A stretch of 64,000 bases of DNA, from contig NZ_JAKCFB010000015.1 in the NCBI RefSeq assembly GCF_024198235.1, positions 62,001 to 126,000 on the forward strand. The letters are read 5' to 3'. This stretch comes from Myxococcus dinghuensis (GTDB taxonomy: Bacteria; Myxococcota; Myxococcia; Myxococcales; Myxococcaceae). The notes below the pieces were generated by a model, which was not told where the DNA came from, made no database searches, and worked only from the letters and a program-made list of their open reading frames with translations. A program made the translations under genes and the position numbers. Below, in pieces: positions 17,651 through 63,487 of the stretch (position 1 is its first letter; every line of letters starts with the position of its first letter).

Positions 17651-18412
17651 CTAGAAGCGGTGCAGCACGTGGCTCAGGTGGCGCCCCGTCTTCCCCGCGT
17701 CGCGCCGGTGGGAGAAGAACCGCTCGGGCTCACATGCCGTACAGGCCTGTAGCACGTCCACGTGGGCGGGCTTGAGCCCCGCCCGCAGCAGCGACAGTCG
17801 CACCGCCCGTGACAGGTCCAGGTGGGGACGGCCGGCCCGTCGCTCCACGACCTCGTCGCCGAAGCGCGTCACGAAGCGCTGTCCCAAGTCATCCGAGACC
17901 TCGTAGCAGCACCGCTGGATGGCGGGCCCCACCGCCGCCAGGAGCCGCTCCGGCCTGGTGCCCCGGGCCACGAGGATCTCCACCGCGCGGGTGCTGATCT
18001 CCGCGTCCGTGCCCCGCCACCCGGAGTGCACCGCGGCCACGCGCCGCTTGTCGGGGTCCACCAGCAGCACCGGCACGCAGTCCGCGGTGCCCACCGCCAC
18101 CCAGGTCCCCGGCGTCTGCGTCCAGAGCCCGTCCGCCTCGCCCTCCGTGGGCCGCAGCGCCTCGCTCCCCTCCTCCGCGCGCGCCTCCAGCACGCGGTCG
18201 CCATGAACCTGTGACACACGACACAAGGCGCCCAGTGACGCCCCCGCCGCCGTCGCGAGCCGCCGCAGGTTCTCCTCCACCCGCGCCCGCTCGTCGCCCG
18301 TGGAGAACCCCAGGTTGAGCGAAGCGAACGGCCCTTCGGACACGCCGCCCGCGCGCGTCGCGAAGCCATGGGGGACGGGAAGCAGCGAGGACGTCAGCAG
18401 CACGGTCGACAT
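17651..18412 (-). CDS. pgeF: Peptidoglycan editing factor PgeF (YfiH/laccase-domain family)
   Basis: A 253-residue protein of the YfiH/DUF152 family, annotated as multicopper polyphenol oxidase in old records and shown in E. coli to keep wrongly built muropeptides out of the wall. The metal-site residues are in place: H70 (SQVHGDRV), C112 (GTADCVPVLL) and H129 (AAVHSGWRG). The C-terminal block CTACEPERFFSHRRD follows. Length is normal. The ATG at 18412 is preceded by AAGGGCGG at good spacing. It is transcribed away from the diguanylate cyclase gene and ends in a short terminator, so is probably monocistronic. Confidence 0.92.
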   Translation of the reverse strand: MSTVLLTSSLLPVPHGFATRAGGVSEGPFASLNLGFSTGDERARVEENLRRLATAAGASLGALCRVSQVHGDRVLEARAEEGSEALRPTEGEADGLWTQTPGTWVAVGTADCVPVLLVDPDKRRVAAVHSGWRGTDAEISTRAVEILVARGTRPERLLAAVGPAIQRCCYEVSDDLGQRFVTRFGDEVVERRAGRPHLDLSRAVRLSLLRAGLKPAHVDVLQACTACEPERFFSHRRDAGKTGRHLSHVLHRF

Positions 18413-18513
18413 GGTCCGCCCTTGTATCCGCCCCACCGCCACGACGCACCCGGACGGCCCGTCGCGCCGACGGATTGCGCTAGCGAAGCCGAAAAATTCC
18501 GATGCAAGTACGT

Positions 18514-18571
18514 TTGACAGTCCGCGTCAGGCCATTGACAATTCCGCAGACTCTTCGTGAAACAGGTTTCA
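18514..18571 (+). promoter_or_regulatory. Promoter/operator region of the haem-c diguanylate cyclase gene
   Basis: Two TTGACA boxes occur at 18514-18519 and 18535-18540. The first is 17 bases from GACAAT (18537-18542). The second is 17 bases from a palindrome TGAAAC-AG-GTTTCA (18558-18571), whose left arm would sit in the -10 position. The palindrome is a good operator candidate for a dimeric regulator. Confidence 0.5.
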
Positions 18572-18602: not shown

Positions 18603-20528
18603 ATGCCCCTAGGACCGGACACCGTAGGCAGGAAGCTCCTGTGGAGCATCGCCCTGCCCGGGCTCGTGGTCGCGCTGTTGGGCGTGGGGCACTTCTGGCG
18701 CGAGGCGCAGGTGTCCGTGCAGGACGCGACGCAGGTGGAGTCGCTCGCACTCGCGGAGTTCGTCGCCTCCACGTTCCTGCTCCCGCAGGGCCCGGGCGCG
18801 CCGCCGCACGACGCGGTGGCGGAGGTGCTGCGCTCGGACACGCGGCTGTTCCGCTCCGTCGCAGACGTGCGCGTGCTGTCGCTGGAGGGCGACGTGCGCT
18901 GGTCGCGCAACCCCTCGGAGGTGGGCACGCGACATCCGGAAGCGGCGCGGCTGACGACCCCGCGCCCGGAGACGGCGCGCTCGGACGACGGAGTGACGGA
19001 GGTGGTGCGTCCGTTGGGCGGCCCCGAGTGCGGCGGCTGCCACACGCGAGGCGACATCCCCGGCGCGAGCATCCTCCAGATGCGCATGGTGGAGCCGCCG
19101 CTGCACCAGCAGTTGACGCGCGTGTTCGGCGGGGCGCTGGGCTCGATGGTGTTCTTCGTCGTGCTGCTGTCGCTCGTCACCACGCTGTCGCTGCACTTCA
19201 ACCTCTCCCGGCCGCTGCGCAAGCTGAGCGCGGCCATGGGGCGGGCGGAGGCCGGGGACCTGCTGGTGCGCGCGGAGACGCGGGGCACGGATGAGATCGC
19301 CCGCCTGGGCGCGGCCTTCAACCAGATGCTCGCGCGGCTCACCACCATGAAGGTGGAGGAGATCGACACCCACCGCGACCTGGAGCTGGTGAAGGAGAAG
19401 CTGGCCCTCAAGGACGAACTGGAGGAGCGCCTGCGGGAGCTGTCGCTCCTGTTCGACGTGGCCCGCTCGCTCAACGCCACGCTGGAGCTGGACGAGCTGC
19501 TCGAGACGGTGACACGGCAGGTGGTGGAGCGGCTCCAGATTCCGGAGTTCTCCATCATGCTGGTCAACGCCGACGGCGCGCTGGAGATCCGCCACGCCTG
19601 GCCGGAGGAGCGCACCACGGAGGGGCTCACCTTCTCCGTGGGCGAGGGCGCGTGTGGCCGCGCCGCGCAGACGCACAAGGCCGTGTACCTGCCGGACGTG
19701 ACGGACCCGTCCAGCGTGTTCGCGCGGCGGGGGCTCATCGAGGGCGCCATGGACACCGGGGCCCTGCTCGCGGTGCCCATGGTCCACATGGACGCGCTGC
19801 TCGGGGTGATGAACTTCCAGCGTCCGCAGGTGGCCAGCTTCTCCGCGGAGGAGATCGAACTGCTCACCGCGGTGGCGGACCTGGCGGCGACGGCGGTGAA
19901 GAACGCCCGGCTCCACGCGGAGACGGTGAAGCTCACGATGACGGACCCGCTGACCGGCGTCCCCAACCGCCGGCACCTCTTCCAGCGCATGGAGCTGGAG
20001 ATGGCGCGGGCCCAGCGCTACGGCACGTCGCTGGCCCTGCTGATGGTGGACGTGGACCACTTCAAGCGGCTCAACGACCTGGCGGGCCACCGCGTGGGCG
20101 ACGAGACGCTCCGGAAGGTCTGCGACATCCTCCGCACGCGCGTGCGCAAGGTGGACACGCTGGCGCGCTATGGCGGCGAGGAGTTCGTCCTGCTCCTGCC
20201 CCAGACGCACAAGGCGGAGGCGCTGGAGGTGGCGGAGAAGCTGCGCCGCGCCATCGCGGAGACGCTGGTGCTGCCCCAGTCCGCCCTCCCCGGCGGCCAT
20301 GTCACCGTCTCCGTCGGCGTGGCGCACTTCCCGTCCGACGCCACCACGCAGGAGGCGCTCGTGGACAGCGCGGACGCGGCGCTCTATTGCAGCAAGCGCA
20401 CCGGCCGCAACCGCACCACGGCCTTCGAGCCCGGCATGGAGATCCACCCGGGCCGCGAGCGCGGGCCCCACGCGCCCCCCACCGAGCCCGCCGCGCCCAA
20501 GCCTCCGGGCGGCGTCGCCAAGGCCTGA
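18603..20528 (+). CDS. Diguanylate cyclase with periplasmic haem-c motif, HAMP, GAF and GGDEF
   Basis: A 641-residue membrane-bound c-di-GMP synthase. The order is transmembrane helix (about 13-30), periplasmic domain (about 31-177), second helix (about 178-198), HAMP (199-250), coiled coil, GAF (about 295-436) and GGDEF (about 440-610). The active site is GGEEF at 524-528 and the RKVD I-site (515-518) lies five residues before it, so product inhibition is expected. The periplasmic domain carries CGGCH at 143-147, a canonical CxxCH haem-c attachment site in the context GGPECGGCHTRGD. This suggests redox, NO, CO or oxygen sensing outside the membrane. The GAF domain has no obvious ligand motif. 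The start is the ATG at 18603, with two TTGACA boxes upstream. Confidence 0.92.
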   Translation: MPLGPDTVGRKLLWSIALPGLVVALLGVGHFWREAQVSVQDATQVESLALAEFVASTFLLPQGPGAPPHDAVAEVLRSDTRLFRSVADVRVLSLEGDVRWSRNPSEVGTRHPEAARLTTPRPETARSDDGVTEVVRPLGGPECGGCHTRGDIPGASILQMRMVEPPLHQQLTRVFGGALGSMVFFVVLLSLVTTLSLHFNLSRPLRKLSAAMGRAEAGDLLVRAETRGTDEIARLGAAFNQMLARLTTMKVEEIDTHRDLELVKEKLALKDELEERLRELSLLFDVARSLNATLELDELLETVTRQVVERLQIPEFSIMLVNADGALEIRHAWPEERTTEGLTFSVGEGACGRAAQTHKAVYLPDVTDPSSVFARRGLIEGAMDTGALLAVPMVHMDALLGVMNFQRPQVASFSAEEIELLTAVADLAATAVKNARLHAETVKLTMTDPLTGVPNRRHLFQRMELEMARAQRYGTSLALLMVDVDHFKRLNDLAGHRVGDETLRKVCDILRTRVRKVDTLARYGGEEFVLLLPQTHKAEALEVAEKLRRAIAETLVLPQSALPGGHVTVSVGVAHFPSDATTQEALVDSADAALYCSKRTGRNRTTAFEPGMEIHPGRERGPHAPPTEPAAPKPPGGVAKA

Positions 20529-29600: not shown

Positions 29601-31124
29601 CCGGCTCCGACGCCCATCGTCAAGGCCCCGGCGCCGCTCCCGCTCGACGAGCCACCCTCTCCCACGCCCATCATCAAGGGCCCAGCCTCGCTGATGCGGG
29701 ACGAGCCCCCGGCTCCGACGCCCATCGTCAAGGCCCCGGCCCCCCTCCCGCTCGACGAGCCCCCTTCACCCACGCCCATCATCAAGGTCCCGGCCTCGCT
29801 GATGCGGGACGAGAGCGCGACCTCCCCGTCCAGCGTCAAGGTGCCGGCACCGCCCTCCCGCGACCTGACCACGGCACAGACGCCAGGTGCGCGGACGCAC
29901 GGGACGCCGGATCACGACGAGGCGCCGTCGCCGACGCCCATCGTGCCGACGCGGTCGATCCTCTCGAGCCGCAGCACGTCCTCGCGAGTGGAGACGCCCT
30001 CGCGGCGCATGTCGCCGCTGACTACCCCGACCAAGGGCGCATCCTCCGTGGATCCGGATCGTCCCTCGGGGCGCACCCACACGGTGGGCACCGACTCCGA
30101 ACGACCGTCGGCCCGCGCGGGCGCCAGCGGTACGGACGTCGAGCGCCCCTCGGGACGCACGAGCACCGTCGGCACCGACTCCGAACGGGCCTCTGTCCGC
30201 ATTCCCACATACGCGCCCGACCCGGAACGCCACGCGGGTCGCGATGCCAGCACGGGGGCCGACGCCGAGCGCTCCGGCCCGCGCTCCGCCCTCGGCTCGG
30301 AACGCTCCGGCTCACGCTCCGCCCTCGACGGCGACCGACTCCCGCCCATCGTGCGCCAGGTCACGCCCCCCGAACACGTCCGGGTGGCCTCGACACGCTC
30401 GACCACCAGCGAGGTGGAGCGCCCGCCGCCCGTCCTCACGCCGAACAGCGGCCACGCCGACTCGGAGCGGGCGCCGCCGGTCCTCCGTCCGCGCCACACG
30501 CCCAACGAGACGGAGCGCCCGCCCACCCTGCCGCCGCGTGCCTCGACGCCCCCGCCCGTCCCCCGTCAGCGCCCTCCGCGCCTCATGTCCATCGACGGAC
30601 CTCCGAAGCTCGAGCCGGTGAACGACGCCACGCCCCGCTCGGGCCTCCCCGTCCACAAGGCCACCGGCGCCACGCCGCACGAGCCCGAGGACGAGCCCGA
30701 GGAGATCTCCGAGGACGAGGCCCACGCCATCGACGAGGCCGAGGAGGGAGCCCCTACCCCACCCCACTCCCGCCCACGTCTGGACGAGCCGGATGAGATC
30801 AGCAGCGACGAGGTGGAGGACGCCGAGCTCTCCGTCAGCGGGGCCGCGCGGCTGATCGACGACGACGAGCTCCAGGAGGCGGAGCCCGACGCGGCCATCG
30901 ACGAAGCCCCCGGCGAGGACGAGGGCCCCGCCCCGGAGCCGCTCTCCTCGACGCTCAACCCGTGGTTCGCCCACCTCGCCCACGGGTATTGCCCCCCCGA
31001 GGGAACCCGGTTCGCCCGGCACACGCCCCCCACCACCTTCCCGGGGCGGGACGAGGACACGGATCCACCCCGCCTCCCGCCGTCGCCCGGTAAACAAGGC
31101 GCCGTTCGCGGCAAGGGGTCGTGA
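26694..31124 (+). CDS. GT4-family glycosyltransferase with very long Pro-rich repetitive C-terminal tail
   Basis: About 1476 residues. The first 390 residues are a complete GT-B glycosyltransferase of family 4: LLLCSFDVIPGPSGSSRRVT at the N-terminus, a donor domain with LGSHVGWQGLPTLLRAVA, and the family region EYFAAGRPVIAAELPVTREL. The remaining 1080 residues are low-complexity, rich in Pro, Ala, Thr, Glu and Arg, with exact tandem repeats (51, 45 and about 54-60 bp units) and a second group of SERPSGRT-like repeats, ending in an acidic segment. The start is taken as TTG at 26694, where a TATTCT element nine bases upstream suggests a leaderless transcript; a GTG at 26619 would add 25 residues. 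It diverges from the DUF4912-GH57 operon. The role of the tail is unknown. Confidence 0.83.
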   Translation: MSDLPRLLLCSFDVIPGPSGSSRRVTEYLKALPDRFSVVVLSAKTPDHSHIEKYQGARLLRVPVGSGDLASRIQAFERAVRRQLESEDYALAHFTDPFGGYALCELKGDYGYRLVYEAQTFPSQELRYTHPQTEGDRRFLSKVRRQELFCLMNADLVITGSQTTRAYIQSLGASEESVRVVRAPVDLKPFEPDVLGAPDGDPFRLMYLGSHVGWQGLPTLLRAVALAGEQVDVRLTLVGAQHPDWQPHLDDLVKDLGLKDRVEFQAPVHHDDVAKVLALADAGVLPLDDVERNRLQGGPLAKVSEYFAAGRPVIAAELPVTRELIPEDTAVFFPPGDSRAMSERIIELARDIPRRVELGRRARAHAEAALDAGIIRGQLLDLYDSLLEKRVGPVPTTSEDDLPAPTMVTGTPTSRLATLAPPDSGRVRIPQPDKRDVPVEKAPAPAKDEPPTDDAPVVMGLALEDGLDTRLVKTEPDGRPVEMPVVMGLPLRERAAQAPAATSTKARSEAESAEEDGVQDVVVGTPIALGADPTPLTPMRAATAEGRDEAQPGDGEAHQRRSEEAQAASTSAEGPALGDEPPAPTPIEPRRGHPRDSMEDEGDVRASETPSSPTPVVKAPPPDEREGLADEGELASTSSEAPSSPTPVVKAPAPPPLEEPESPGAGASAAGSRAHDESAPYSARNAASHTREETHRNGRSAPAQMREESSAHEAKGTTAPTHEDPSPNTIRGSDSQEHEDAPPSTLGRGNGALTRDDALSSTHGRSNGALTRDDALSSTHGRGNGALTRDDALSSTHGRGDWAITREEPPTPGRGDWAITREEPPTPGRGDWAITREEPPTPGRGDWAITREEPPSPTPVVKAPAPLPLDEPPSPTPVVKAPAPLPLDEPPAPTPVVKAPAPLPLDEPRSEREEPPSPTPIVKAPAPLPLDEPPSPTPIVKAPAPLPLDEPPSPRPIVKSPASLMRDEPPAPTPIVKAPAPLPLDEPPSPTPIIKGPASLMRDEPPAPTPIVKAPAPLPLDEPPSPTPIIKVPASLMRDESATSPSSVKVPAPPSRDLTTAQTPGARTHGTPDHDEAPSPTPIVPTRSILSSRSTSSRVETPSRRMSPLTTPTKGASSVDPDRPSGRTHTVGTDSERPSARAGASGTDVERPSGRTSTVGTDSERASVRIPTYAPDPERHAGRDASTGADAERSGPRSALGSERSGSRSALDGDRLPPIVRQVTPPEHVRVASTRSTTSEVERPPPVLTPNSGHADSERAPPVLRPRHTPNETERPPTLPPRASTPPPVPRQRPPRLMSIDGPPKLEPVNDATPRSGLPVHKATGATPHEPEDEPEEISEDEAHAIDEAEEGAPTPPHSRPRLDEPDEISSDEVEDAELSVSGAARLIDDDELQEAEPDAAIDEAPGEDEGPAPEPLSSTLNPWFAHLAHGYCPPEGTRFARHTPPTTFPGRDEDTDPPRLPPSPGKQGAVRGKGS
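28932..29084 (+). repeat. Three tandem 51-bp repeats in the GT4 tail
   Basis: Three head-to-tail 51-bp units (28932-28982, 28983-29033, 29034-29084) differ at only a few positions. Each encodes 17 residues reading GRGNGALTRDDALSSTH, with minor changes. Near identity at the DNA level, synonymous sites included, points to recent expansion. Confidence 0.92.
29085..29264 (+). repeat. Four tandem 45-bp repeats in the GT4 tail
   Basis: Four 45-bp units (starting at 29085, 29130, 29175 and 29220) follow directly after the 51-bp repeats. Each encodes GRGDWAITREEPPTP, the last with SP. Copies are nearly identical in DNA and share the GGCAGGGGC unit start with the previous array, so one array probably arose from the other. 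Confidence 0.92.
29254..29800 (+). repeat. Pro-rich repeat array, about ten copies of a PxPTPxVKAPAPLPLDEP-type unit
   Basis: About ten imperfect units of 54-60 bp encode variants of PPSPTPVVKAPAPLPLDE and PIVKGPASLMRDEPPAP. Several stretches over 40 bp are identical between units. The encoded chain should be extended and disordered, like a spacer or a ligand for multivalent binding. Confidence 0.88.
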
Positions 31125-31152
31125 AGCAGCCAACCGAGCCCCCACCGGAAAC

Positions 31153-31182
31153 TTTCCAAGCCTCCAGCCCGCCCAGTAGGAT
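31153..31182 (+). promoter_or_regulatory. Candidate promoter of aglZ
   Basis: TTTCCA (31153-31158) and TAGGAT (31177-31182) are 18 bases apart, about 40 bases before the aglZ ATG. A ribosome binding site GAAAGGG lies just upstream of the ATG, so this would give a normal leader of about 35 bases. Confidence 0.5.
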
Positions 31183-31223
31183 GTCGCGGTTTTCACTGCA
31201 CTTTTTCCGGGTGAAAGGGCTTC

Positions 31224-34200
31224 ATGGAGCGCCGCGTCCTCATCGTTGAAAGCCAGAACGACTTCGCCCTCAGCATGGCGACCGTGCTCAAGAGCGCGGG
31301 CTATCAGACAGCCATGGCGGCGACGGCCACGGATGCGCAGCGCGAGCTGGAGAAGCGCCGACCGGATCTCGTCGTCCTCCGAGCCGAGCTGCCGGATCAA
31401 TCCGGGTTCACGCTGTGCGGGCAGATCAAGAAGGGCAAGTGGGGCCAGAACCTCAAGGTCCTGCTGCTCTCCTCCGACACCGGCGTCGAGGGGCTGACGC
31501 AGCACCGCCAGACGCCGGGCGCCGCGGACGGCTACCTGGTCATCCCGTTCGAGATGGGTGAGCTGGCGTCGCTCAGCACGGGCATCGTCCCCCCGGGGAG
31601 CGACGAGTCGGACGCGTCGCTCGACGCGGCGCTCGCCGGCAACGCCCCGCGCGAGGCCCCGCCGCCCATGCCCGCCGTGCGCACCACCGCCGGAGGGCCG
31701 CCCAAGCTCCCCAAGCGCGAGCGCCGCAGCGCGATGACGGAAGAGGACCGCGCCTTCCTCGACCGCGCCTTCCAGTCCATCGCCGACCGCAAGGCGGAGC
31801 TGCTCGCCGAATCGCGCCAGCTCAAGCGCCCGCCCCCGCGCCGCGAGCTGATGGGCACGCCGGAGGGGAAGATCCAGATCCTCCGCGACGAGCTGAAGAC
31901 GCGCGAGGCACAGCTCGCCCGCCTGTCGGAGATCTGGAGCGTCCGCGAGCGCGAGCTGCTGTCCGGAGAGGACCGCCTCCACGAGAAGGACGTGGAGCTG
32001 CAGGGCCTGAAGATGCAGGTGGATGACCTGCTGCGCCGCTTCAACGAGGCCCAGCAGGCCATGCTCCAGAAGGAGCGCGAGCACGGCGCCACCGTGGACG
32101 ACCTCCTCCTCCAGAAGTTCTCGGCGGAGAAGGACCTCATCGAGGTCGTCGCCTCCAAGGAGAAGGACATCAACCTCCTGCGCAAGGAGGTCCACAACCG
32201 CGAGGACGAGCTGGCCCGCCGCGGCGCGGACCTGGACACCCTGCGCAACGAGCACGACAAGCTGGAGAAGCACCTCGGCGTCGTGACGCTCGAGTTCGAG
32301 GTCAAGGAGCAGAAGCTCCAGGACGCCCTGCGCGCCCAGGAGACGGAGAGCGCGCGGCTGGGCAAGCGCGGCGACGACTTCGAGGCGGAGCTGGGCCGCA
32401 CCGTCAGCGAGCGCGACCAGCGCTACGCCGAACTGGACGGGGAGATCCAGGCCCTCCAGGAGCGGCTGCAGCAGACCGAGCAGGAGCGCGACACCACCGT
32501 GCGCGGCCTGGAGACCCGGGCCGCCGCCGCCGAGGAGCACGGCACGCGCGCGGACGCGGAGATCACCCGGCTGAGCGCCGAACGCGACGCGATGGAGGCC
32601 CGCCTCGGCCAGCAGGTGGCGGACCTGGAATCCGACCTCGCGCGCACCACCAGCGAGCGGGATCAGCTCCGGCTGGACAAGGACGCCCAGGAGGCGGAGC
32701 TCAACCAGCGCGTCGAGGACCGCGACGCGAAGATCTCCACGCTCGACCGCGAGCTGTCGGAGACCATCGCCCGGAACGAGCACTCCGAGGCCGAGCTCAA
32801 CTCCACCATCCAGCAGCAGCTCGAGCGCATCGGCGAGCTGGAGGGTGAGGTCGAGGCCGTCAAGACGCATCTGGCGGACCGCGAGGCCGAGCTGACCGGC
32901 GAACTCCAGGCCCTCACCGAGGCCAAGAATGACCTCGAGGAGGACCTCACCGGCCGGCTCCAGGCGCTGCAGATCGCCAAGGACGCGCTGGAGCAGGAGC
33001 TCACGCAGCAGTTGGAGGAGCTCCGCGCGGCCAAGGCCGAGCAGGAGGCGGACCTCACCGGGCAGATCCAGGCCCTCACGCAGCAGTTGGAGGAGGCGCA
33101 GCGGCTCGGCGAGCAGCTCCAGGGCCGGGTGACGGACCTCGAGGACACCGTCGCCCAGCGCGACGCCACCATCGAGGGACTCCAGGGCGACGTCGCGACG
33201 CGAGACCAGCGCATCTCCGAGCTCAGCGGAGACCTGGAGGCCACCAGCCAGACGCTCGCGCAGACCCAGGACACCCTGTCGCGCACCGAGCAGCAGCTCT
33301 CGGAGACGCAGGGCCTGCTCGCCAGGACGGAGGAGTCGCTCTCCGAGACGCGCGGCGAGCTCGAGGCCACCAGCCAGACGCTGACCGACACGCAGGCGCG
33401 CCTGGCCCAGACGGAAGAGGCGCTGTCCACCACGCGCGGCGAGCTGGAGGCCACCAGCCAGACCCTCGCGCAGACCCAGGACACGCTGGGCCGCACCGAG
33501 GCCACCCTCGCCGACACCCAGGCGCGGCTCGCGCAGACGGAAGAGGCGCTGTCCACCACGCGCGGCGAGCTGGAGGCCACCAGCCAGACCCTCGCCCAGA
33601 CGCAGGACACGCTGGGCCGCACCGAGGCCACCCTCGCCGACACCCAGGCGCGCCTGGCGCAGACCGAGGGCTCGCTGGCGGAGACGCGCGGGGAGCTGGA
33701 GGCCACCAGCCAGACGCTCGCGCAGACCCAGGACACCCTCGAGGAGACGCGCGACCAGCTCGGCACCACCACCGCCCAGCGCGACGCGCTCCAGGCGGAC
33801 CTGGACGACACCCGCGCCCGACTCCAGGACACGAGCGACGCGCTCGCGCGCACCACGGACGAGCGCGACCAGCGCACCGCCGAGCTGCACGCCCTGTCCC
33901 AGGCGAAGGACGCCCTGGAGCAGGACCTCACCGGGCAGATCGGCCAGTTGCGCGGCGAGCTGTCGGAGACGCTGGGCAACTACGAGGCCGAGCGGGCCGC
34001 GCACGAGAAGCTGGCGGCCGAGACGAGCGCGCAGATCGAATCGCTCACGGGTGAGCGCGACGGGCTGCGCTCGGAGCTGGAGGCCACCAGCCAGACGCTG
34101 ATGCAGACCCAGGAGGCGCTGGCCGCGACCCGCGACCACCTGGCCCGCGAACAGCAGGGCCACGCCGCCACCCGGCAGCAGGCCGCCGCGAACCAGGCGA

Positions 34201-35591
34201 GCCTCGAGGCCGCGCTCAACGACACGCGCAACCAGGTCGAGGACCTGGGCGAACAGCTCACCATCACCAAGCACGAGCTGGGCGCGAAGGTCGCCGAGGT
34301 CACCCACCTGACCTCGCAGCTCGCGCAGGTGGAGGACGCGCGCGCCACCCTCAAGGAGCGCCTGGACACCCTCACCGAGGAGTCCCAGCGCCGCGAGGAG
34401 CTGCTCTCGAACGACCTGGCCACCAAGGGCAAGGAGCTGTCGGACACGCTGCGCAAGCTCACCCAGGTGACGCAGGAGAAGATGCGTCAGGCCGAGGTGC
34501 TCAACCGCGAGGTCGCCACCCGCACCGAGCAGCTCAAGGCCCTGGAGACGAAGCTCCAGACGCAGGCCGCCGACGCCAAGCGCCACGCGGACGGCCTGGG
34601 CCAGCAGATGGCCGGCCTCAACAACCAGTTCGAGCTGGCGAAGAAGGCCCTGGGCGAGCGCGACGAGCAGTTGCGCGCCGCGAACGCCGCCCACCAGAAG
34701 CTCGGCCAGGAGCGCGACGGCGTGGCCAGCCAGCTCCAGCAGTCCGAGGCCCGCCTCCAGCAGCAGACCCAGGCGGCGGCCCAGGAGCGCGCGGACGCCA
34801 AGCGCGCGGCGGACGAACTGGCCGCGAAGCTCGCCAAGGCCGAGCAGCGCATCGCCCAGCTCACCCAGGAGGCCCAGAAGAACGCCGCCGACGCCGACGC
34901 CAAGGCCAAGGACCTGCAGGGACAGGTCGCCGCCCGGGCGAAGAAGGCGCAGGACCTGGAGCTCGCGCTGGAGAACGCCCAGGGCGCCAAGGCCCGCGCG
35001 GAGAAGGAGCTGAACGCGAAGGTCGCCGCCGCCGAGGGCAAGGCCAACGAGGCCGCCGCCCGGCTCGCCACGGCCCAGAAGGAGCGCAAGGACCTGGAGG
35101 CCCGCCAGAGCAAGGAGCTTGAGGACCTCTCCGCCAAGCAGAAGGCGGAGCTGGAGCGCCGCGACGCCATCAAGGCCCAGGAGGTCGCCCGCCTGCAGCA
35201 GTCCGTGCAGGAGAAGAGCAAGGCACTCAAGGTCGCCGAGCTGGAGCTGGCGCGCTTCAAGAGCAAGGCCCCCGCCACGCCCGCCCCCGTCGCCGCGAAG
35301 GCCGCCAAGGCCGCGCCCGCGGACGACGACGACCTGGCCATCCGCACCCAGCTCAACCAGACCATCCCCCCGGCCGCCGTGGCCGCGCCGGCCCCCGCCG
35401 CCAAGGCCGCCCCCAAGGCCGCCAGGCCGGCTCCCGCCGCCAAGGCCGCAAAGGCCGCCCCCGCTCCCGCCCCCGTGGGCCTGGGCGAGGAGTCCGAGCC
35501 CACCGACCGGACCATGGTCGTCCAGCTCCCCGCCGCCGCTGCGAAGGAGGACGACGACTGGACGGCCCTGGTGGACGAGCTCGACAAGTAG
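31224..35591 (+). CDS. aglZ: AglZ, pseudo-receiver plus giant coiled-coil gliding motility protein
   Basis: A 1455-residue cytoplasmic protein matching AglZ, which marks focal-adhesion gliding complexes with MglA and the Frz pathway. Residues 1-120 are a receiver fold (RRVLIVESQNDFALSMATVL). The phosphorylation site is lost: the Asp expected after DLVVL is R53, and the acidic pocket reads VESQND, so it is a pseudo-receiver. From about 200 to 1360 the chain is a continuous charged coiled coil, with exact 42-residue repeats near 740-820. An Ala/Pro/Lys tail follows and the C-terminus reads EEDDDWTALVDELDK-like. I recall the M. xanthus protein as 1395 residues, so this one is longer, probably by repeat number. 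GAAAGGG precedes the ATG. Confidence 0.93.
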   Translation: MERRVLIVESQNDFALSMATVLKSAGYQTAMAATATDAQRELEKRRPDLVVLRAELPDQSGFTLCGQIKKGKWGQNLKVLLLSSDTGVEGLTQHRQTPGAADGYLVIPFEMGELASLSTGIVPPGSDESDASLDAALAGNAPREAPPPMPAVRTTAGGPPKLPKRERRSAMTEEDRAFLDRAFQSIADRKAELLAESRQLKRPPPRRELMGTPEGKIQILRDELKTREAQLARLSEIWSVRERELLSGEDRLHEKDVELQGLKMQVDDLLRRFNEAQQAMLQKEREHGATVDDLLLQKFSAEKDLIEVVASKEKDINLLRKEVHNREDELARRGADLDTLRNEHDKLEKHLGVVTLEFEVKEQKLQDALRAQETESARLGKRGDDFEAELGRTVSERDQRYAELDGEIQALQERLQQTEQERDTTVRGLETRAAAAEEHGTRADAEITRLSAERDAMEARLGQQVADLESDLARTTSERDQLRLDKDAQEAELNQRVEDRDAKISTLDRELSETIARNEHSEAELNSTIQQQLERIGELEGEVEAVKTHLADREAELTGELQALTEAKNDLEEDLTGRLQALQIAKDALEQELTQQLEELRAAKAEQEADLTGQIQALTQQLEEAQRLGEQLQGRVTDLEDTVAQRDATIEGLQGDVATRDQRISELSGDLEATSQTLAQTQDTLSRTEQQLSETQGLLARTEESLSETRGELEATSQTLTDTQARLAQTEEALSTTRGELEATSQTLAQTQDTLGRTEATLADTQARLAQTEEALSTTRGELEATSQTLAQTQDTLGRTEATLADTQARLAQTEGSLAETRGELEATSQTLAQTQDTLEETRDQLGTTTAQRDALQADLDDTRARLQDTSDALARTTDERDQRTAELHALSQAKDALEQDLTGQIGQLRGELSETLGNYEAERAAHEKLAAETSAQIESLTGERDGLRSELEATSQTLMQTQEALAATRDHLAREQQGHAATRQQAAANQASLEAALNDTRNQVEDLGEQLTITKHELGAKVAEVTHLTSQLAQVEDARATLKERLDTLTEESQRREELLSNDLATKGKELSDTLRKLTQVTQEKMRQAEVLNREVATRTEQLKALETKLQTQAADAKRHADGLGQQMAGLNNQFELAKKALGERDEQLRAANAAHQKLGQERDGVASQLQQSEARLQQQTQAAAQERADAKRAADELAAKLAKAEQRIAQLTQEAQKNAADADAKAKDLQGQVAARAKKAQDLELALENAQGAKARAEKELNAKVAAAEGKANEAAARLATAQKERKDLEARQSKELEDLSAKQKAELERRDAIKAQEVARLQQSVQEKSKALKVAELELARFKSKAPATPAPVAAKAAKAAPADDDDLAIRTQLNQTIPPAAVAAPAPAAKAAPKAARPAPAAKAAKAAPAPAPVGLGEESEPTDRTMVVQLPAAAAKEDDDWTALVDELDK
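33351..33686 (+). repeat. 126-bp tandem repeats inside the aglZ coiled coil
   Basis: Two nearly identical 126-bp units (33435-33560 and 33561-33686) are preceded by an 84-bp partial unit at 33351. Each full unit encodes 42 residues (RGELEATSQTLAQTQDTLGR followed by TEATLADTQARLAQTEEALS and two Thr), three 14-residue blocks, so copy number changes keep the heptad register. Confidence 0.9.
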
Positions 35592-35760
35592 CCCCCGCGG
35601 CGCCTGACCCCGTGCCCACCCTCCGAGCGTGTCCGCGCTCCAGCCGGTGGGCCGGGTCGGGAAGCCGGCGGGTGTGTCGGAACTCCGTCGGGGTGGGTGG
35701 GGCGACGTCACGGGAGCCCGTGGGCTCGACCGCGACATTCATGCCCTACCGGGGTGGAAC

Positions 35761-56748: not shown

Positions 56749-59700
56749 CTATTTCGACGCTCCCACGGTAAGGACGGCGCCCGTCGAGTACGCGGTGAAC
56801 TCCGGCGCATACATGGATTGCACGGTGGCCGGGCCCACGCGGAAGGTGCCCGCCATGTTCGCGCGCAAGCGATACTTGAATGTGTATTCGCCCGCAGGCA
56901 GCCACTCGAAGAAGAAGTTGGTGTTCGCGTCGCGTGTCTCCTCGTACCAGACGATGCCGGAGTCCCACTTGTGGCGGGACTGCGCGCCCTCCGGCTCCAG
57001 GCCCGCCGCGCGGGGATCCCTCAAGTGGACGTACTCGGCCGCGTGCTTCGAGCGCAGCGACAGTTGCACCTCCACTTCGTCCCCGGGGACGAGCGCCGCG
57101 CCCTCGACGAGCGGGCGGAGCACCACCTGCTGGCCCTCGCGCGCGCGCAGGAAGTAGCGGCGTGACACGGAGAAGAAGTCACCCCGGTCCTCCTCCGGCA
57201 GCGTCTCCGTGGAGAAGTGCCACGTGGCGGAGGCGAAGGCGAAGCCCGGCGTCGTCTTCTCCACCACCACCGTGCTCATCGTCTGCGGCTGGAGCTCGGG
57301 CCCCGGCACCACCACCTGGTTCTTCTTGCCGGTGTACACGTCCGGGGCGAACTCCATGCGCGTGACGCGCGGCCCCACCGTCACCTGGGCGTCCTCGCGC
57401 ACGCCCAGCGCCCCTTCCGCCTCCAGGTACTTCACCAACGCGTAGAGGGCCTCCGCCGTGGCGCGCGTGGACTTCCAGTGGTTGAGCTTCTTGTCCAGGA
57501 GCAGCCACTGCACCAGGCCCTCGCGTCGGGTGTCCTTGGGCGACAGCTCGGTCAGCGTGCGCAGCGCGAAGGCGTGCGTCTCCGTGGTGTCGTTGTACCA
57601 GAGCCAGCTACGGTCCTCGGGCGCCCAGTACGTCCCCAGCTCCGGGCTCGTCTTCGCGGAGTCCATCACGCTGTCCCAGACGCGCCGGGCATCCGCGCTC
57701 CGGCCCGCGCGCGCGAGCGTCAGCGCCAGGTAGCCCTTGAGCATGGGGGAGTGCTCCTTCCAGTGCTTGAAGCTGAAGGCCAGCATCTGCTCCCGGTCCG
57801 AGGCGGTGAGCGCGTCGCCCGTGTAGCCCGGTCCCGGATAGGCGGAGGCCACGTGGTTGAGGAAGGTGATGAACTCCCAGCCCTCGCCCTTCTTCATCAG
57901 CTTGCCGGCGTACTCCTCGCGGAAGTGCCGCGCGAGATAGCCCCAGGCATTGCGCGTCATCTCCTCCGGCACCGGCACCTCGTACTCGAGGGCGCGCGAC
58001 AGGCCGTGGAGGATGTAGAGCGTCATGTACGGCGAGGGCGGGCCGCCCGGCCACCAGGGGAACCCGCCGCTGGCCGTCTGCGCCTTCTGCAGCTTCGCCA
58101 TCGCGGCGTTGCGCTCGGCGTTCGCCACCTTCGGGTCCAACACCTTCACATGGCCGGCCTCGCCCGCCGGGCCCCCCTTGGCCATCTCCAGCCACGGGGT
58201 CTCCTCCAGCGCCATCTTCCGGTTCGGGTCGACGGAGTCCCACGTCTCGAGGCGGGTGTCGCGCTCGCTCAGCGTCTTGGCCATCTTCGCCACCGCCGGG
58301 TAGCGACCATAGAGGCTGGTGAGGATGCCGGACGAGACGAAGCGGTTGAGCGTCTGCTCCGAGCACTCGTAGGGGTAGTCCACCAGGTACGGCAGGGCCT
58401 GGAGCGCGGAGTAGAAGAGCTGTGTATCCACCGTGACGACGAGCTGCTCGTTGATGCGCGTGGGGTCACCTCCCTGCTTCAGGTCGTCGAAGCGCATCGT
58501 CTTGGTGTCCTTGCCCTTGAGCGTGACGAAGCGCGACTGCGCCAGGTGGATGCGGCCGGGCAGCACGGGCAGCGGGCGCAGCTCGCCGTCGCTCAGGTTG
58601 CCGGCGCGGGCCTCCACGCGGAAGGCCACCTGCCCCACGCGCGCGGGCGTGGTGAGCGGGAAGCGCAGGTGGGTACCCTTGCCCGGGGCCACGTCGAAGG
58701 TCTGCGACGCGTTCTTCACCCCGAAGTCGGCGAGCAGGCTCTTGCGCGTCTCCACATCCACGATGTCCAGCGTGAGGGTGCCCTGCTGGGACCGCTCCGC
58801 CGCGTTGTTCACCACCACCTCCAGCACCGCGCGGTCTCCCTCGCGCAGGAAGCGCGGCACGTACGGCCGCACCATCAACTCCTTCACGCTCTGGGTCGTG
58901 CGCTGCGCGGAGCCGCCCTTCAAGTCGCGGGTGACGCCATGGACCCAGACGTTCCAGGCCGTCACCGAATCGGGGACGGTGAACTCCAGCGTGGCGGAGC
59001 CATCCGCGTCCGTGAGCAACTGCGGCACCCAGAAGGCGGTCTCCGCGAAGTTGGAGCGCATCGACACGGCCTCGGGGGACGCGCCTGCCTCGGGCGCCGC
59101 GTTCGCGGACTTCTCCTTCGCCAGGGGCTTCGCCACCGACTCCTGCATCACCATGCCCGGAGCGGGCGGTGGCGGCGGTGGCGGTGCGTCCGCGGGCTTG
59201 GGCTCGGCCACGGGCGCCGCCGACCTGCGCGCCCTCTCCATCCGGCCCGTCGCCATCATCGGACCGGAACCAAACCCGCCGCGCGCCCCCGGGCCCCCCA
59301 GTCCGTAGCCCTCCTCGAACTTGAGCCGGTCCACCGCGGGCGGCTCCCATCCCGGGGATTCACCGTAGCGGTCGGAGACGAGCCACATCGTGTTCGCGAC
59401 GGACAACGAGGACGGCAGGAGCGTGGTCGACCCCCGCGCCGGGTACAGCGCCGCCACGTCCTGGGGCGTGTGCTTCATGAACAGGTCGAGCGATTGGTCA
59501 TACATGTACGCGAGCAGCTCGGCGGCCCCCGCCTCCACCTTCGCCCCGCGAGGCCCCGTCACCTTCACCCGCCAGGTCTCCTTCGCGCCTGGGCGAAGCT
59601 TGTCGCGGAACGTGGAGAACTCGAGGCTCAGCTCCTTGTCGTCGAACGGCACGGACACCTGCGTGTTGAACCGGAGCAACTGCCAGTCACGCACCGCCAC

Positions 59701-62700
59701 CAGCACCGCGCTGAAGCCGCCGCGCAGCGCCTGCGTCACGGGCACCTCCACCACCGCGGGCGTCTGCCCCGCGACCAGGGGCATGCGCGTCACGCGCTTC
59801 TCCCCCTGGTACAGGTCCAGCATCAGCGGCTGTCCCTCGAAGCCGGACGCCACCAGGAAGCGCGCCACGTCGCCCACGCGCACCGTCGGCTTCTCCTGCA
59901 CCAGCGCGGCGGGCAGCGCCACCGGCGCGCGCGCCCCGGCCACCAGCAGCTCGCGCTTCACGGTGAACGTCTTCCCGAAGGCGTCCGTCGTCTCGTATTG
60001 CAGGCGATAGGCGCCCGCCTCCAACGCCGGCAGCTTCACGCGCGCGAGCCCCTGGGCGTCGTGGCGGACCTCTCCCTTCGCCCGCTCCGCGCCGTCCGCC
60101 CACGAGGCCAGCGTCGCCTGGAAGTCGTAGTCCTGCGCCCAGCGCGGCTGCTGCGCGTCACCCGGGGTGGGCGTGCTCACCGCGTCCGGGTCCTTGCGCG
60201 TCGGTGGCTGCACGAGCGGCTCGTCTGCGGGCAGCACGGGGCGCTTCGGCTGCTGGAGCGCGACGAGCCGCCAGCGCCCGGCGCCGGGGAGCGGCGCGCC
60301 GTCCAACGACGAGCGCACGAACCGCACCTCGGCGGGGGTCCCCTCGCGCAGGAAGTTCTCGTCCGTGTCGACGCGGCCCTCCACGGCGATGAAGCCCAGC
60401 CGGAAGGCACGCTCCGCCGAGCGCGTCTCTCCGCCCTCGTCCGTCGCGTCCGCCTCGATGCGATAGCGCCAGGTGAGGTCCTCCGAGCGCGCGGCGCGCT
60501 CATCCGCCTCGGGCGTGAAGTTCACCTGGAAGGAGCCGTCCTCCGCCAGCGAGGTCGTGCCGGCGGCCACGAGCTGCCGTTGCTGGGGGACGAAGGAGGA
60601 GCGCCACCCCCACCAGAACGGGAACACCGGCTCGCGGAACGCGCGCCAGCGCACGGTGCCCGTGGCCACGGGCAGGCCGAAGTAGTAGCGCGCCTCGCCC
60701 TTGAACGTGGCCGGCCGGTTGAGCCGCAGCGGGGCCTCCGGGTCCTTCAGCGAGACCTCGAAGGTGGGCCGCTTGTACTCCTCCACGCGCACCATGGCCG
60801 AGCCCCCGGAGTCGACACGCACCTGCCACAGCCCGAGCACGCGCCCGGTGGGGATGGCGAACTCCCCCGCCGCCGTGCCGAAGGCGTTGGTGCGGACCTC
60901 GCGCCGGGCGACCTCCTGGTAGTTGGGGTCCATCAGCGTCACCACGAGGCGCTCGTCCGGCCGCGTCTGGTAGCGCGCCTGCTCGCTCCGCCCCCGGAAG
61001 GCCACCACCTTCCACTGCAGCTTCTGCAACGGCCGGTAGACGCTGCGGTCCGTGAACACGAGCGACGACGTCAGTTCGCTGTCGCGATCCCTCGCGTAGA
61101 CGCTCGCGCCCGCGTCCAGCATCCGCGCCTCGCGCCCCTTCCCCACCACCAGCCGGTAGTACCGGTAGTCCGTCCTCGAAAGCTGGGGGAAGGACACCTC
61201 GCCCTGGGGATTGGTGGTCGCGCGGGCCACCTCGCGCAGCCCCGTGCGGTAGTCGACGAGGAACACCCGCACCAACGTCTCCGAGAGCGGCGCGCCCGTG
61301 TCGCCCTTCACGACGCGCACCTCCAGCGGCGCGCCCTGCCCACCCTGGGGGAGCGCCACCCACGGGACGATGGAGAGGAAGACCCCCTGTGCGCGGTTGG
61401 AGGCCTCGCGGAAGCCCGCGTCCGCCGAGGCGATGATGGCGTAGGTGCCGGACTCCTTCAGCGGGGGCGTCACGAAGGTACGGTGCTGCGCGAAGTCCCG
61501 CGTGGCGGGGAGCTGCGCGGTCCAGGACGCGACGGGCTTGCGGTTCTTCAGATACCCCCGCAGCTCGCCATCCGTGGGCAGCTCGCTCGAGTCGGACGAG
61601 CCCTTGAGCTTCTCGAGCCGCGCCTCCACGTCCACCGCGTACGCGCGGAAGTGGAGCGTGGGCACGTTGCGGTGGGTCACCTGGAGCGAGCGCTGGCCCG
61701 GGCCGTCCATCGTGAGGCCCGCCAGGGAGAAGTCGGGCGCCTCGATCTGCGCCTGGACGGTGCGACACCGCCGGCCGCCCACCGACTCCGGGAACCGGGT
61801 CCGCCCCTCGGACGCGAGCTGATGCGCGCGCACCAGGTGACCGGCCTCGCGCTCCAGCTCCGCCAGGAGCCCCTGCCCCATCGCCCACCAGGGCACGTCC
61901 TGGAACCCCTTCAGGTGCGCGGCGAGGTGCTGGCGCAGCCGGGTGCGGTCGTCCGCGTCCGTGAAGTGCCGGTGCAGCACTTCATGGCGCTTCAGCCTCG
62001 CCTCCAGCGCCGCCTCGCGCCGCCCCGCCGAGCGGTGCCAGGCCTCCAGGTCCCCCATCACCGCCGCCACCTTCAGGAGCGGATGGATGGCGGGGTCGCT
62101 CAGGTCCACCGTGGGCGTCCCCTCCAGCAGGGAACCCAGGTCGAGCCGGAAGACCTCGTTGGCGTGCTCCGGACGCCAGGTGCTGCTGTCCTGCAACAGG
62201 TCGACGCGCAGGTAGGAGACGGCGTCCCGCAACGTGGGGCGGATGCCGGCGGGGAACGTGTTGGGCTCGAGGAACTCGCCGAGCGCCTTCACCGGCTCCG
62301 CCCCCAGCGCCTGGCGCTGCTTCCACAGCGCCTCGAAGGCCCGCTGCGCCTCGGTGATGATCTGCTCGTACGTCCACGCCTTGAGGTCCACCGGGCCGGA
62401 GGACACGACCTGCTCGCGCTTGCGGACCTCCCAGGCGTAGGCCCGCGCGTACGTCACCAGCGCGTTGGCGTAGTAGAGGTCGAGCGTGGCGTGGGCCAGC
62501 GTGCCCTTGGGCCAGGGCTGCTCGCGCAGGAAGCGCACCGCCGTCTCGTAGCCGTGCAGGGCGGTGCGCAGTTGCACCGTGCGCACCAGCGCGCGCGTCC
62601 ACTCGGCCTCGTCCGGACCGTTCCGGGCGGCCTCGAGCCGGGCCTCCGTGCCCTGCGCGGCGGCCTCCACCTTCTGGTCGTCCACCAGCGCGTCGATGGC

Positions 62701-62805
62701 CTTCCACGACGGCGGGGCAGCCGCCAGGGCGGGGGCGGCGCTCAGGAGACACAGCAGCAACGACAGGGCGATGGACGGTGTCCGTATCCAAGGGGCGGCG
62801 AGCAT
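56749..62805 (-). CDS. Bacterial alpha-2-macroglobulin with thioester motif
   Basis: A 2018-residue exported protein of the alpha-2-macroglobulin family, a large protease trap. A signal peptide ends near SAAPALA (about 30). The N-terminal 330 residues are helical and specific to this type. Macroglobulin domains follow (HFRAYAVDVEARLEKL, VYRPLQKLQWKVVAFRGRSE). The thioester CxEQ motif is C1481-SEQ (DYPYECSEQTLNRF), followed by the thioester domain helices and a receptor-binding-like C-terminus. E. coli YfhM is a lipoprotein paired with PBP1C; here the signal lacks a lipobox and no pbpC gene is adjacent. The ATG at 62805 follows TAGAGT by seven bases. It likely traps proteases of prey or rivals in the periplasm. 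Confidence 0.93.
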   Translation of the reverse strand: MLAAPWIRTPSIALSLLLCLLSAAPALAAAPPSWKAIDALVDDQKVEAAAQGTEARLEAARNGPDEAEWTRALVRTVQLRTALHGYETAVRFLREQPWPKGTLAHATLDLYYANALVTYARAYAWEVRKREQVVSSGPVDLKAWTYEQIITEAQRAFEALWKQRQALGAEPVKALGEFLEPNTFPAGIRPTLRDAVSYLRVDLLQDSSTWRPEHANEVFRLDLGSLLEGTPTVDLSDPAIHPLLKVAAVMGDLEAWHRSAGRREAALEARLKRHEVLHRHFTDADDRTRLRQHLAAHLKGFQDVPWWAMGQGLLAELEREAGHLVRAHQLASEGRTRFPESVGGRRCRTVQAQIEAPDFSLAGLTMDGPGQRSLQVTHRNVPTLHFRAYAVDVEARLEKLKGSSDSSELPTDGELRGYLKNRKPVASWTAQLPATRDFAQHRTFVTPPLKESGTYAIIASADAGFREASNRAQGVFLSIVPWVALPQGGQGAPLEVRVVKGDTGAPLSETLVRVFLVDYRTGLREVARATTNPQGEVSFPQLSRTDYRYYRLVVGKGREARMLDAGASVYARDRDSELTSSLVFTDRSVYRPLQKLQWKVVAFRGRSEQARYQTRPDERLVVTLMDPNYQEVARREVRTNAFGTAAGEFAIPTGRVLGLWQVRVDSGGSAMVRVEEYKRPTFEVSLKDPEAPLRLNRPATFKGEARYYFGLPVATGTVRWRAFREPVFPFWWGWRSSFVPQQRQLVAAGTTSLAEDGSFQVNFTPEADERAARSEDLTWRYRIEADATDEGGETRSAERAFRLGFIAVEGRVDTDENFLREGTPAEVRFVRSSLDGAPLPGAGRWRLVALQQPKRPVLPADEPLVQPPTRKDPDAVSTPTPGDAQQPRWAQDYDFQATLASWADGAERAKGEVRHDAQGLARVKLPALEAGAYRLQYETTDAFGKTFTVKRELLVAGARAPVALPAALVQEKPTVRVGDVARFLVASGFEGQPLMLDLYQGEKRVTRMPLVAGQTPAVVEVPVTQALRGGFSAVLVAVRDWQLLRFNTQVSVPFDDKELSLEFSTFRDKLRPGAKETWRVKVTGPRGAKVEAGAAELLAYMYDQSLDLFMKHTPQDVAALYPARGSTTLLPSSLSVANTMWLVSDRYGESPGWEPPAVDRLKFEEGYGLGGPGARGGFGSGPMMATGRMERARRSAAPVAEPKPADAPPPPPPPAPGMVMQESVAKPLAKEKSANAAPEAGASPEAVSMRSNFAETAFWVPQLLTDADGSATLEFTVPDSVTAWNVWVHGVTRDLKGGSAQRTTQSVKELMVRPYVPRFLREGDRAVLEVVVNNAAERSQQGTLTLDIVDVETRKSLLADFGVKNASQTFDVAPGKGTHLRFPLTTPARVGQVAFRVEARAGNLSDGELRPLPVLPGRIHLAQSRFVTLKGKDTKTMRFDDLKQGGDPTRINEQLVVTVDTQLFYSALQALPYLVDYPYECSEQTLNRFVSSGILTSLYGRYPAVAKMAKTLSERDTRLETWDSVDPNRKMALEETPWLEMAKGGPAGEAGHVKVLDPKVANAERNAAMAKLQKAQTASGGFPWWPGGPPSPYMTLYILHGLSRALEYEVPVPEEMTRNAWGYLARHFREEYAGKLMKKGEGWEFITFLNHVASAYPGPGYTGDALTASDREQMLAFSFKHWKEHSPMLKGYLALTLARAGRSADARRVWDSVMDSAKTSPELGTYWAPEDRSWLWYNDTTETHAFALRTLTELSPKDTRREGLVQWLLLDKKLNHWKSTRATAEALYALVKYLEAEGALGVREDAQVTVGPRVTRMEFAPDVYTGKKNQVVVPGPELQPQTMSTVVVEKTTPGFAFASATWHFSTETLPEEDRGDFFSVSRRYFLRAREGQQVVLRPLVEGAALVPGDEVEVQLSLRSKHAAEYVHLRDPRAAGLEPEGAQSRHKWDSGIVWYEETRDANTNFFFEWLPAGEYTFKYRLRANMAGTFRVGPATVQSMYAPEFTAYSTGAVLTVGASK

Positions 62806-62866
62806 GGTCGGCACTCTAGACGCAGGCCGCCGCCCGGGCGTTCCACTTCCCGCGCGACCCGTGGCG

Positions 62867-63487
62867 TCAGGGAGCCGGCGCGGACACGGGGGCCTTGCGG
62901 CGAAGACCCACGAGGTAGACCTCCATGCTCGCCCCGCGCGTGGCCTCCGGGCGGACCACCTTCACCTCTTCGAAGAGGGCGCGCACCTGGTTGCGGAAGT
63001 CCTCGAAGTCCCCGCCCATGAACACCTTGGCCACGAAGGACGAGCCGGGCCGGCCACGCGCCGTGGCGATCTCCAGCGCCTTGCCCGCCAGCCGCAGGCT
63101 GCGCGCCTCGTCCGTGGCCTTGATGCCGCTCGTCTTGGGCGCCATGTCGGAGATGACCGCGTCGAACGGCCCGTCGTACAGCGCGGAGAGCTTCGCGTCG
63201 AAGTCGTCCGCGAGTACGTCCAGCACCGCCGTCTGCACGTGCCGCTGGGTGAAGGGGCGGATGGCGACGATGTCCACGCCGATCACCCGGCCGGCCCCTC
63301 CCACCGCGTCCGCGAGGATCTGCAGGAACCCTCCGGGCGCCGCGCCCAGGTCGAGCACCACGTGGCCCTTCTTCACCATGGGGAAGCGCTTGATCAGCTC
63401 GTCGACCTTGAAGGCCGAGCGCGCGCGGAGCCCCTCTTGCTTCGCTTTCTGGAAATAGTGGTCTTTAGGACGGTAGGGCTTGCCCAT
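62867..63487 (-). CDS. rlmE: 23S rRNA 2'-O-ribose U2552 methyltransferase RlmE (FtsJ)
   Basis: A 206-residue SAM-dependent methyltransferase. It begins MGKPYRPKDHYFQKAKQEGL, typical of RlmE. The SAM motif is VVLDLGAAPGGFLQIL (44-59). The catalytic K-D-K-E set is complete: K27 (RSAFKVDEL), D114 (ISDMAPKTSG), K154 (FVAKVFMG) and E189 (ASMEVYLV). Methylation of U2552 in the A-loop assists late 50S assembly. The ATG at 63487 fits the family N-terminus; an in-frame ATG at 63508 would add seven atypical residues. It lies upstream of the alpha-2-macroglobulin gene with a 61-base gap and is probably separate. Confidence 0.95.
   Translation of the reverse strand: MGKPYRPKDHYFQKAKQEGLRARSAFKVDELIKRFPMVKKGHVVLDLGAAPGGFLQILADAVGGAGRVIGVDIVAIRPFTQRHVQTAVLDVLADDFDAKLSALYDGPFDAVISDMAPKTSGIKATDEARSLRLAGKALEIATARGRPGSSFVAKVFMGGDFEDFRNQVRALFEEVKVVRPEATRGASMEVYLVGLRRKAPVSAPAP

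Follow-up and report, generated by a model that had tools for sequence, protein, structure and literature searches.

A predicted periplasmic c-haem Cache domain joined to a diguanylate cyclase in Myxococcus

The closest described counterparts of the sensor considered here belong to two chemoreceptors of Geobacter sulfurreducens, GSU0582 (structure 3b47) and GSU0935 (3b42). Each carries a single CxxCH motif in a periplasmic helix hairpin and antiparallel sheet, which lies between two transmembrane segments and is followed by a HAMP domain. In GSU0935 the ligand opposite His144 is Met60 or water, and in GSU0582 it is water opposite His143 in the crystal and Met60 upon reduction. Axial ligation changes with redox state, and CO and NO are bound (PMC8396549). 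GSU0935-like c-haem sensor domains also occur in Anaeromyxobacter chemoreceptors (PMC3831638).

A second group, sCache_heme, is the DUF3365/Tll0287-like family (PF11845). Here the CxxCH stands before the last strand of a Cache domain that is fused to HAMP and to outputs including GGDEF/EAL (PMC12889525, a 2026 preprint). c-di-GMP enzymes are named there among the outputs of c-haem Cache domains, and one HAMP-linked haem Cache is described as binding NO tightly, releasing it slowly and forming no stable oxygen complex. In GSU2622, known from a list entry in PMC8396549, a c-haem motif, HAMP, GAF and a c-di-GMP enzyme share one chain, as in the protein studied here, but the enzyme is an HD-GYP (breakdown) and not a GGDEF (synthesis). 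Haem also governs cyclases by other means. In PA14_53310 haem binding to a periplasmic domain lowers diguanylate cyclase activity, but that domain is a CHASE4 and the haem an added b-type ligand (PMC13277305). The oxygen-sensing DosC/YddV (DgcO) has a haem-gated GGDEF, but its sensor is a cytoplasmic globin without CxxCH attachment (PMC8846402). Finally, one periplasmic cytochrome c of Myxococcus xanthus, TfcP, has just one CxxCH (PMC8833165). Among the papers listed in searches on this point we recognised no report of covalent periplasmic haem affecting the activity of a diguanylate cyclase, which is weak evidence of absence since most subscription journals lay outside the search. A sequence-only reading of the locus described below had implied more novelty than this record allows, given that c-haem Cache sensors with c-di-GMP outputs have already been described from sequence (PMC12889525; GSU2622 in PMC8396549).

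The window analysed here, a stretch of 64,000 nucleotides, comes from the 10.4 Mb genome of Myxococcus dinghuensis. It contains a gene (Table 1) whose product consists, in order, of a first membrane helix, a periplasmic domain, a second membrane helix, HAMP, GAF and GGDEF, and whose NCBIfam match is diguanylate cyclase. Residues 32-172 are placed in the periplasm because they lie between two membrane stretches, with HAMP inside. The sequence-only reading had pointed to CGGCH in this loop, and hydropathy agrees with the placement; the two cysteines of the motif are the only ones in the loop. The same reading was right about the output end, where all 61 aligned rows share GGEEF as well as the Arg and Asp of the I-site, and the two motifs are separated by five residues, as expected. 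It was also right about a cytoplasmic GAF domain, which Pfam places downstream of the second membrane helix and HAMP.

Table 1. The cyclase gene, its parts and its immediate surroundings, in window coordinates
Feature	Position	Strand	Basis or remark
Diguanylate cyclase with putative periplasmic c-haem sensor domain	18603..20528	+	641 aa from ATG; ORF list and translation
First membrane helix, residues 11-31	18633..18695	+	hydropathy (stretch about 8-31); model helix 6-58
Periplasmic Cache-like haem domain (predicted), residues 32-172	18696..19118	+	models, fold matches, profile search
Second membrane helix, residues 173-197	19119..19193	+	hydropathy (stretch about 171-202); model
HAMP domain, residues 200-247	19200..19343	+	Pfam, E 7e-14
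Cytoplasmic GAF domain, residues 295-432	19485..19898	+	Pfam, E 5e-19
GGDEF domain, residues 446-604	19938..20414	+	Pfam, E 2e-47
I-site RKVD, residues 515-518	20145..20156	+	alignment and sequence
Active-site GGEEF, residues 524-528	20172..20186	+	alignment and sequence
CGGCH, residues 143-147, putative haem-c attachment site with proximal ligand His147	19029..19043	+	
His69, candidate distal haem ligand	18807..18809	+	invariant in 86/86 readable orthologues
Sigma-70-like promoter candidate TTGACA-17-GACAAT	18514..18542	+	about 60 bases before ATG; consensus match only
Cu-oxidase_4 (PgeF/YfiH-type) gene, divergent neighbour, marks conserved locus	17651..18442	-	

The surroundings of the gene add little. 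Its PgeF, SGNH hydrolase, HtrA and TPR neighbours give no hint of function, and an Rfam search around the gene gave no match. The candidate promoter was found once upstream, against 0.0 (sd 0.1) expected from shuffles. A 662-aa open frame on the minus strand opposite the cyclase presumably just reflects the high GC content. Elsewhere in the window very long open frames of 1,455 to 2,021 aa occur on both strands (30312-35738 and 56749-63021).

Conservation of the motif in an alignment had been set beforehand as a test of the proposed haem site. The family was searched in 96 genomes with the first 258 residues of the protein as query, and the sensor domain was found in the same protein in 87. 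The motif is intact in every one of these, with Cys143, Cys146 and His147 kept in 87 of 87, and the refuting outcome, a motif that varies between orthologues, did not occur. The family members are true orthologues: a divergent PgeF-type gene adjoins the cyclase in 44 of 45 named loci (the exception, L122, starts inside the cyclase at its contig end). The nearest named relatives are species of Myxococcus; loci with a name come from Myxococcus, Corallococcus, Archangium and Hyalangium, among others. One record titled Comamonas sp. KCTC 72670 (BNCN01000003.1, L087) holds a Myxococcus cyclase locus; its title looks wrong.

The mean conservation of the loop is only 0.675 (61 full-length rows, left after 10 of 71 had been dropped as duplicate, truncated, loop-less or of other protein types), so invariance within it stands out. 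Just eight of the 141 loop positions are invariant in these rows: A51, F58, H69, S101, G139, C143, C146 and H147. In the wider census A51 is kept in 83 of 87, F58, H69 and S101 in all 86 that are readable and G139 in 87 of 87; the row that is unreadable at His69 comes from a gene split between contigs (G092). What if CGGCH is nothing but a chance motif in the loop of a high-GC genome? The GC content does speak for this, and it is all that was found to do so. However, CxxCH turns up in the loop in only 2-5 of 10,000 shuffles, and it is conserved throughout the 87 while its two middle residues vary (GG, GS, AG, AS, SG, TG, AD, SA, MS, EG, MT, ES and NS). A chance origin is refuted by the alignment, and we put its probability close to nil.

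The domain was not found without CxxCH among the family, distant GGDEF and kinase rows examined. It can be lost as a whole. Among the nine other family genomes, two (G001 and G083) have an orthologue that lacks the periplasmic domain, one (G013) yields no more than a fragment where its contig ends, and six (G052, G081, G082, G084, G085 and G086) gave no sensor match beyond HAMP in the family search. The two shortened orthologues, L061 of G001 and L062 of G083, occupy the same locus, flanked by PgeF and HtrA (SGNH is also present at L061). They keep HAMP, GAF and GGDEF, and only a short loop connects their two membrane helices. In other words, they are natural sensor-less versions. Both genomes retain cytochrome-c assembly genes. 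In a tree of the cytoplasmic part L061 and L062 stand apart, with weak fork support (81/65 for L061; L062 is on an open fork), and the loss of the sensor was likely two separate events.

The fold was approached by modelling. A model of residues 1-262 reached pLDDT 78.5, and one of residues 32-173 reached pLDDT 85.8 and pTM 0.82. In the models a long helix at the N terminus is followed by a second, short one and by an antiparallel sheet, and CxxCH occupies a short helix or a loop directly before the last strand. The top fold matches are Cache domains, including WalK (7dud; Z 11.4, 3.3 A over 124 residues) and CitA (Z 9.3, 3.6 A over 115 residues), and the periplasmic domain is predicted to have the Cache superfamily fold. 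The two Geobacter sensors rank lower. GSU0582 (3b47) and GSU0935 (3b42) stand in one Foldseek list at ranks 10 and 16, and 3b47 stands in a second at rank 12, with probability 0.99 and 3.3 A over 82 columns; superposition of whole chains on them is limited because both crystals are swapped dimers (PMC8396549). Tll0287 (5b82) is absent among the best 50 matches listed of each of four fold searches, which excludes nothing.

These top matches are haem-free Cache domains, and this is the point in favour of another explanation. Perhaps the domain is an ordinary ligand-binding Cache in which CxxCH is structural or binds a metal (e.g., zinc) and is never loaded with haem. Against a domain without haem are the exact haem-c signature, with both cysteines and the histidine in every member, the finding that no examined member keeps the domain without the motif, and the presence of cytochrome-c assembly genes in the genome (three matches to Cytochrome_C_asm, PF01578). 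A further point against it is that a broad profile matches the two crystallised c-haem domains, as described next. Taken with these points, we regard this explanation as very unlikely.

The evidence for that kinship comes from relatives outside the family. The family profile (A1) was searched over 195 Myxococcota genomes, and its matches extend to other families and classes. The raw tally of 184 of 195 genomes was rejected as a distribution because most of it consists of HAMP matches. Relatives were picked by eye among the matches listed, and the 20 that were fetched, together with five more kinases, are examples and not a census. Among these examples and two kinases from the family search (L063 and L064), CxxCH is present in 14 of 14 distant GGDEF proteins (L155-L168) and in 13 of 13 histidine kinases (L063, L064, L169-L174 and L220-L224). 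Myxococcota histidine kinases with the same kind of CxxCH Cache sensor form part of the picture, many of them in families other than that of the window. Eight distant cyclases were run against Pfam, and all eight have HAMP, GAF and GGDEF; both of two kinases run in this way have HAMP, HisKA and HATPase. The cyclase and kinase sensors are homologous (hhalign, 95.6% with the motif masked).

Against the PDB, the narrow profile A1 gave mostly HAMP matches and reached 3b47 only at E 0.11, and a single kinase sensor as query found nothing useful. Profile A3, built from 41 sensors, matched both Geobacter structures, 3b47 with E 7.9e-6 (92 columns) and 3b42 with E 2e-4; significance for 3b47 was reached only after the kinase and distant cyclase sensors had been added. 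The top A3 row, a cytochrome c555 trimer (E 4e-9), was discarded, since it consists of three weak matches around the motif and was taken to reflect motif similarity only.

Neither Pfam nor NCBIfam has a match in residues 32-172 of the window protein. The nearest Pfam model is PF21563 (Mcp40H-20_sensor), which presumably covers GSU0582 and GSU0935. It does not match the window protein at E 1, and it does not match in the protein's own genome, but there the positive controls gave no match either. Weak matches to it are seen in 12 of the 41 sensors (best E 3e-4; L165 scores 16.0 bits against a cut-off of 27). PF11845 has no match in the window protein or its genome, although matches above its threshold do occur in 42 of the 193 Myxococcota genomes. 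When the family was compared by hhalign with 28 Myxococcota PF11845 domains (two of 30 loci, L194 and L198, were dropped), similarity was 71.7% on 21 columns around the motif and 0.5% with the motif masked. Membership of PF11845 was rejected on these grounds, the sequence similarity seen in this comparison being confined to the motif, and it follows that not every result on c-haem Cache domains is transferable. The A3 matches to 3b47 and 3b42, together with the null masked PF11845 test, place the domain nearer to GSU0582 and GSU0935 than to Tll0287. One haem-free chemoreceptor Cache (L065) aligns with a gap where CxxCH stands, which fits CxxCH as an inserted motif. Within its own genome, the search for haem Cache domains gave one full-coverage match, that of the window, and two short weak ones. 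Overall, the earlier proposal that a covalent periplasmic haem feeds a diguanylate cyclase is well supported by conservation, predicted fold, motif position, kinship to two crystallised c-haem sensors and assembly genes, although the haem itself is predicted from sequence and models.

The likely distal ligand is where the cyclase branch and its relatives may part. Met60 of GSU0935 sits 80 residues before Cys140. The kinase relatives have a methionine 79-83 residues before the first cysteine in 12 of 13 cases (the exception is L063). The window protein has no methionine at this position (residues 60-64 are LPQGP). What it does have is the invariant His69, at the start of the second helix and 74 residues before Cys143. 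By eye, a histidine also starts the second helix in 11 of 14 distant cyclases (L167 and L168 are without it and L160 is partly masked). With methionine absent and His69 invariant in the cyclases, against methionine in the kinases, ligation in the cyclase branch may be His/His, as opposed to His/Met in Geobacter and probably in the kinases. The kinases also have a histidine 60-65 residues before the first cysteine in 13 of 13 cases, which would be an alternative ligand in that branch.

These observations lead to a model that we consider probable, in which the protein is a one-component membrane diguanylate cyclase with a periplasmic c-haem Cache and an output that follows periplasmic redox state or NO. 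The cytochrome-c maturation system would join haem covalently through Cys143 and Cys146. His147 would be the proximal ligand; the distal one is most likely His69, from the helix hairpin that would cover the haem. A redox change of the haem iron, or displacement of His69 by NO (or CO), would move the N-terminal helices against the Cache sheet. Movement would then pass through the second membrane helix, HAMP and GAF to alter how two GGDEF domains meet. c-di-GMP output would track periplasmic redox state or NO, with the I-site capping it, and a further input may come from the cytoplasm through the GAF domain. As the signal, redox would rank first and NO second, and O2 is unlikely.

A narrower version of this model is a plain redox switch. 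The haem would be attached and held between a fixed His69 and His147, there would be no gas input and the protein would read the state of periplasmic electron transport. The persistence of His69 in all 86 readable orthologues and of the helix-start histidine in most distant GGDEF relatives fits this. So does a protein with firm six-coordinate Cys/His ligation that showed weak NO binding and to which redox roles were assigned (PMC12889525). What does not fit is the NO binding of GSU0582, GSU0935 and the HAMP-linked haem Cache, which occurs even in the six-coordinate state (PMC8396549, PMC12889525). Moreover, His69 is a candidate ligand. A switch closed to gases seems to us rather unlikely, and the model with redox or NO as input is retained.

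A broader scenario can be sketched, and it is offered tentatively, as possible but on the doubtful side. The cyclases would represent a separate c-haem Cache lineage, predicted to be His/His and joined to HAMP-GAF-GGDEF since early Myxococcota, whereas the kinase sisters kept the methionine. A change of distal ligand would have adapted a single sensor to two kinds of output, leaving predatory myxobacteria with a conserved periplasmic redox gauge for c-di-GMP.

M. xanthus has the cyclase too, with CAGCH (L029). The conserved ATG gives 644-645 aa in the M. xanthus group, and the only near length fit in the strain table of PMC4877007 is MXAN2997 (646). MXAN2997 is probably the orthologue, judged by length only. 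Deleting it left growth, motility and development unchanged under the conditions used (PMC4877007). This counts against the model, to the extent that an orthology assigned by length only is correct.

Sensors of this type are already known, and the general idea is in print. The branch described here is one without a Pfam or NCBIfam model, strictly conserved and with its own candidate haem ligand. How haem state is passed on to an output has been difficult to measure in c-haem Cache sensors. In the papers considered here, the examples studied are isolated chemoreceptor sensor domains, stand-alone domains or a HAMP-only protein. In the window protein an enzyme with a simple assay is part of the same chain, in a model genus, and this would provide a direct enzymatic read-out. 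If the reading as a His/His lineage is true, haem state could be linked to an enzyme activity that can be assayed within one chain. For the myxobacteria themselves, the finding suggests that c-di-GMP, which in Myxococcus controls both motility and development, receives an input from periplasmic redox state or NO. The gene concerned is one that, to judge from its probable orthologue in M. xanthus, can be deleted without visible phenotype under the conditions used.
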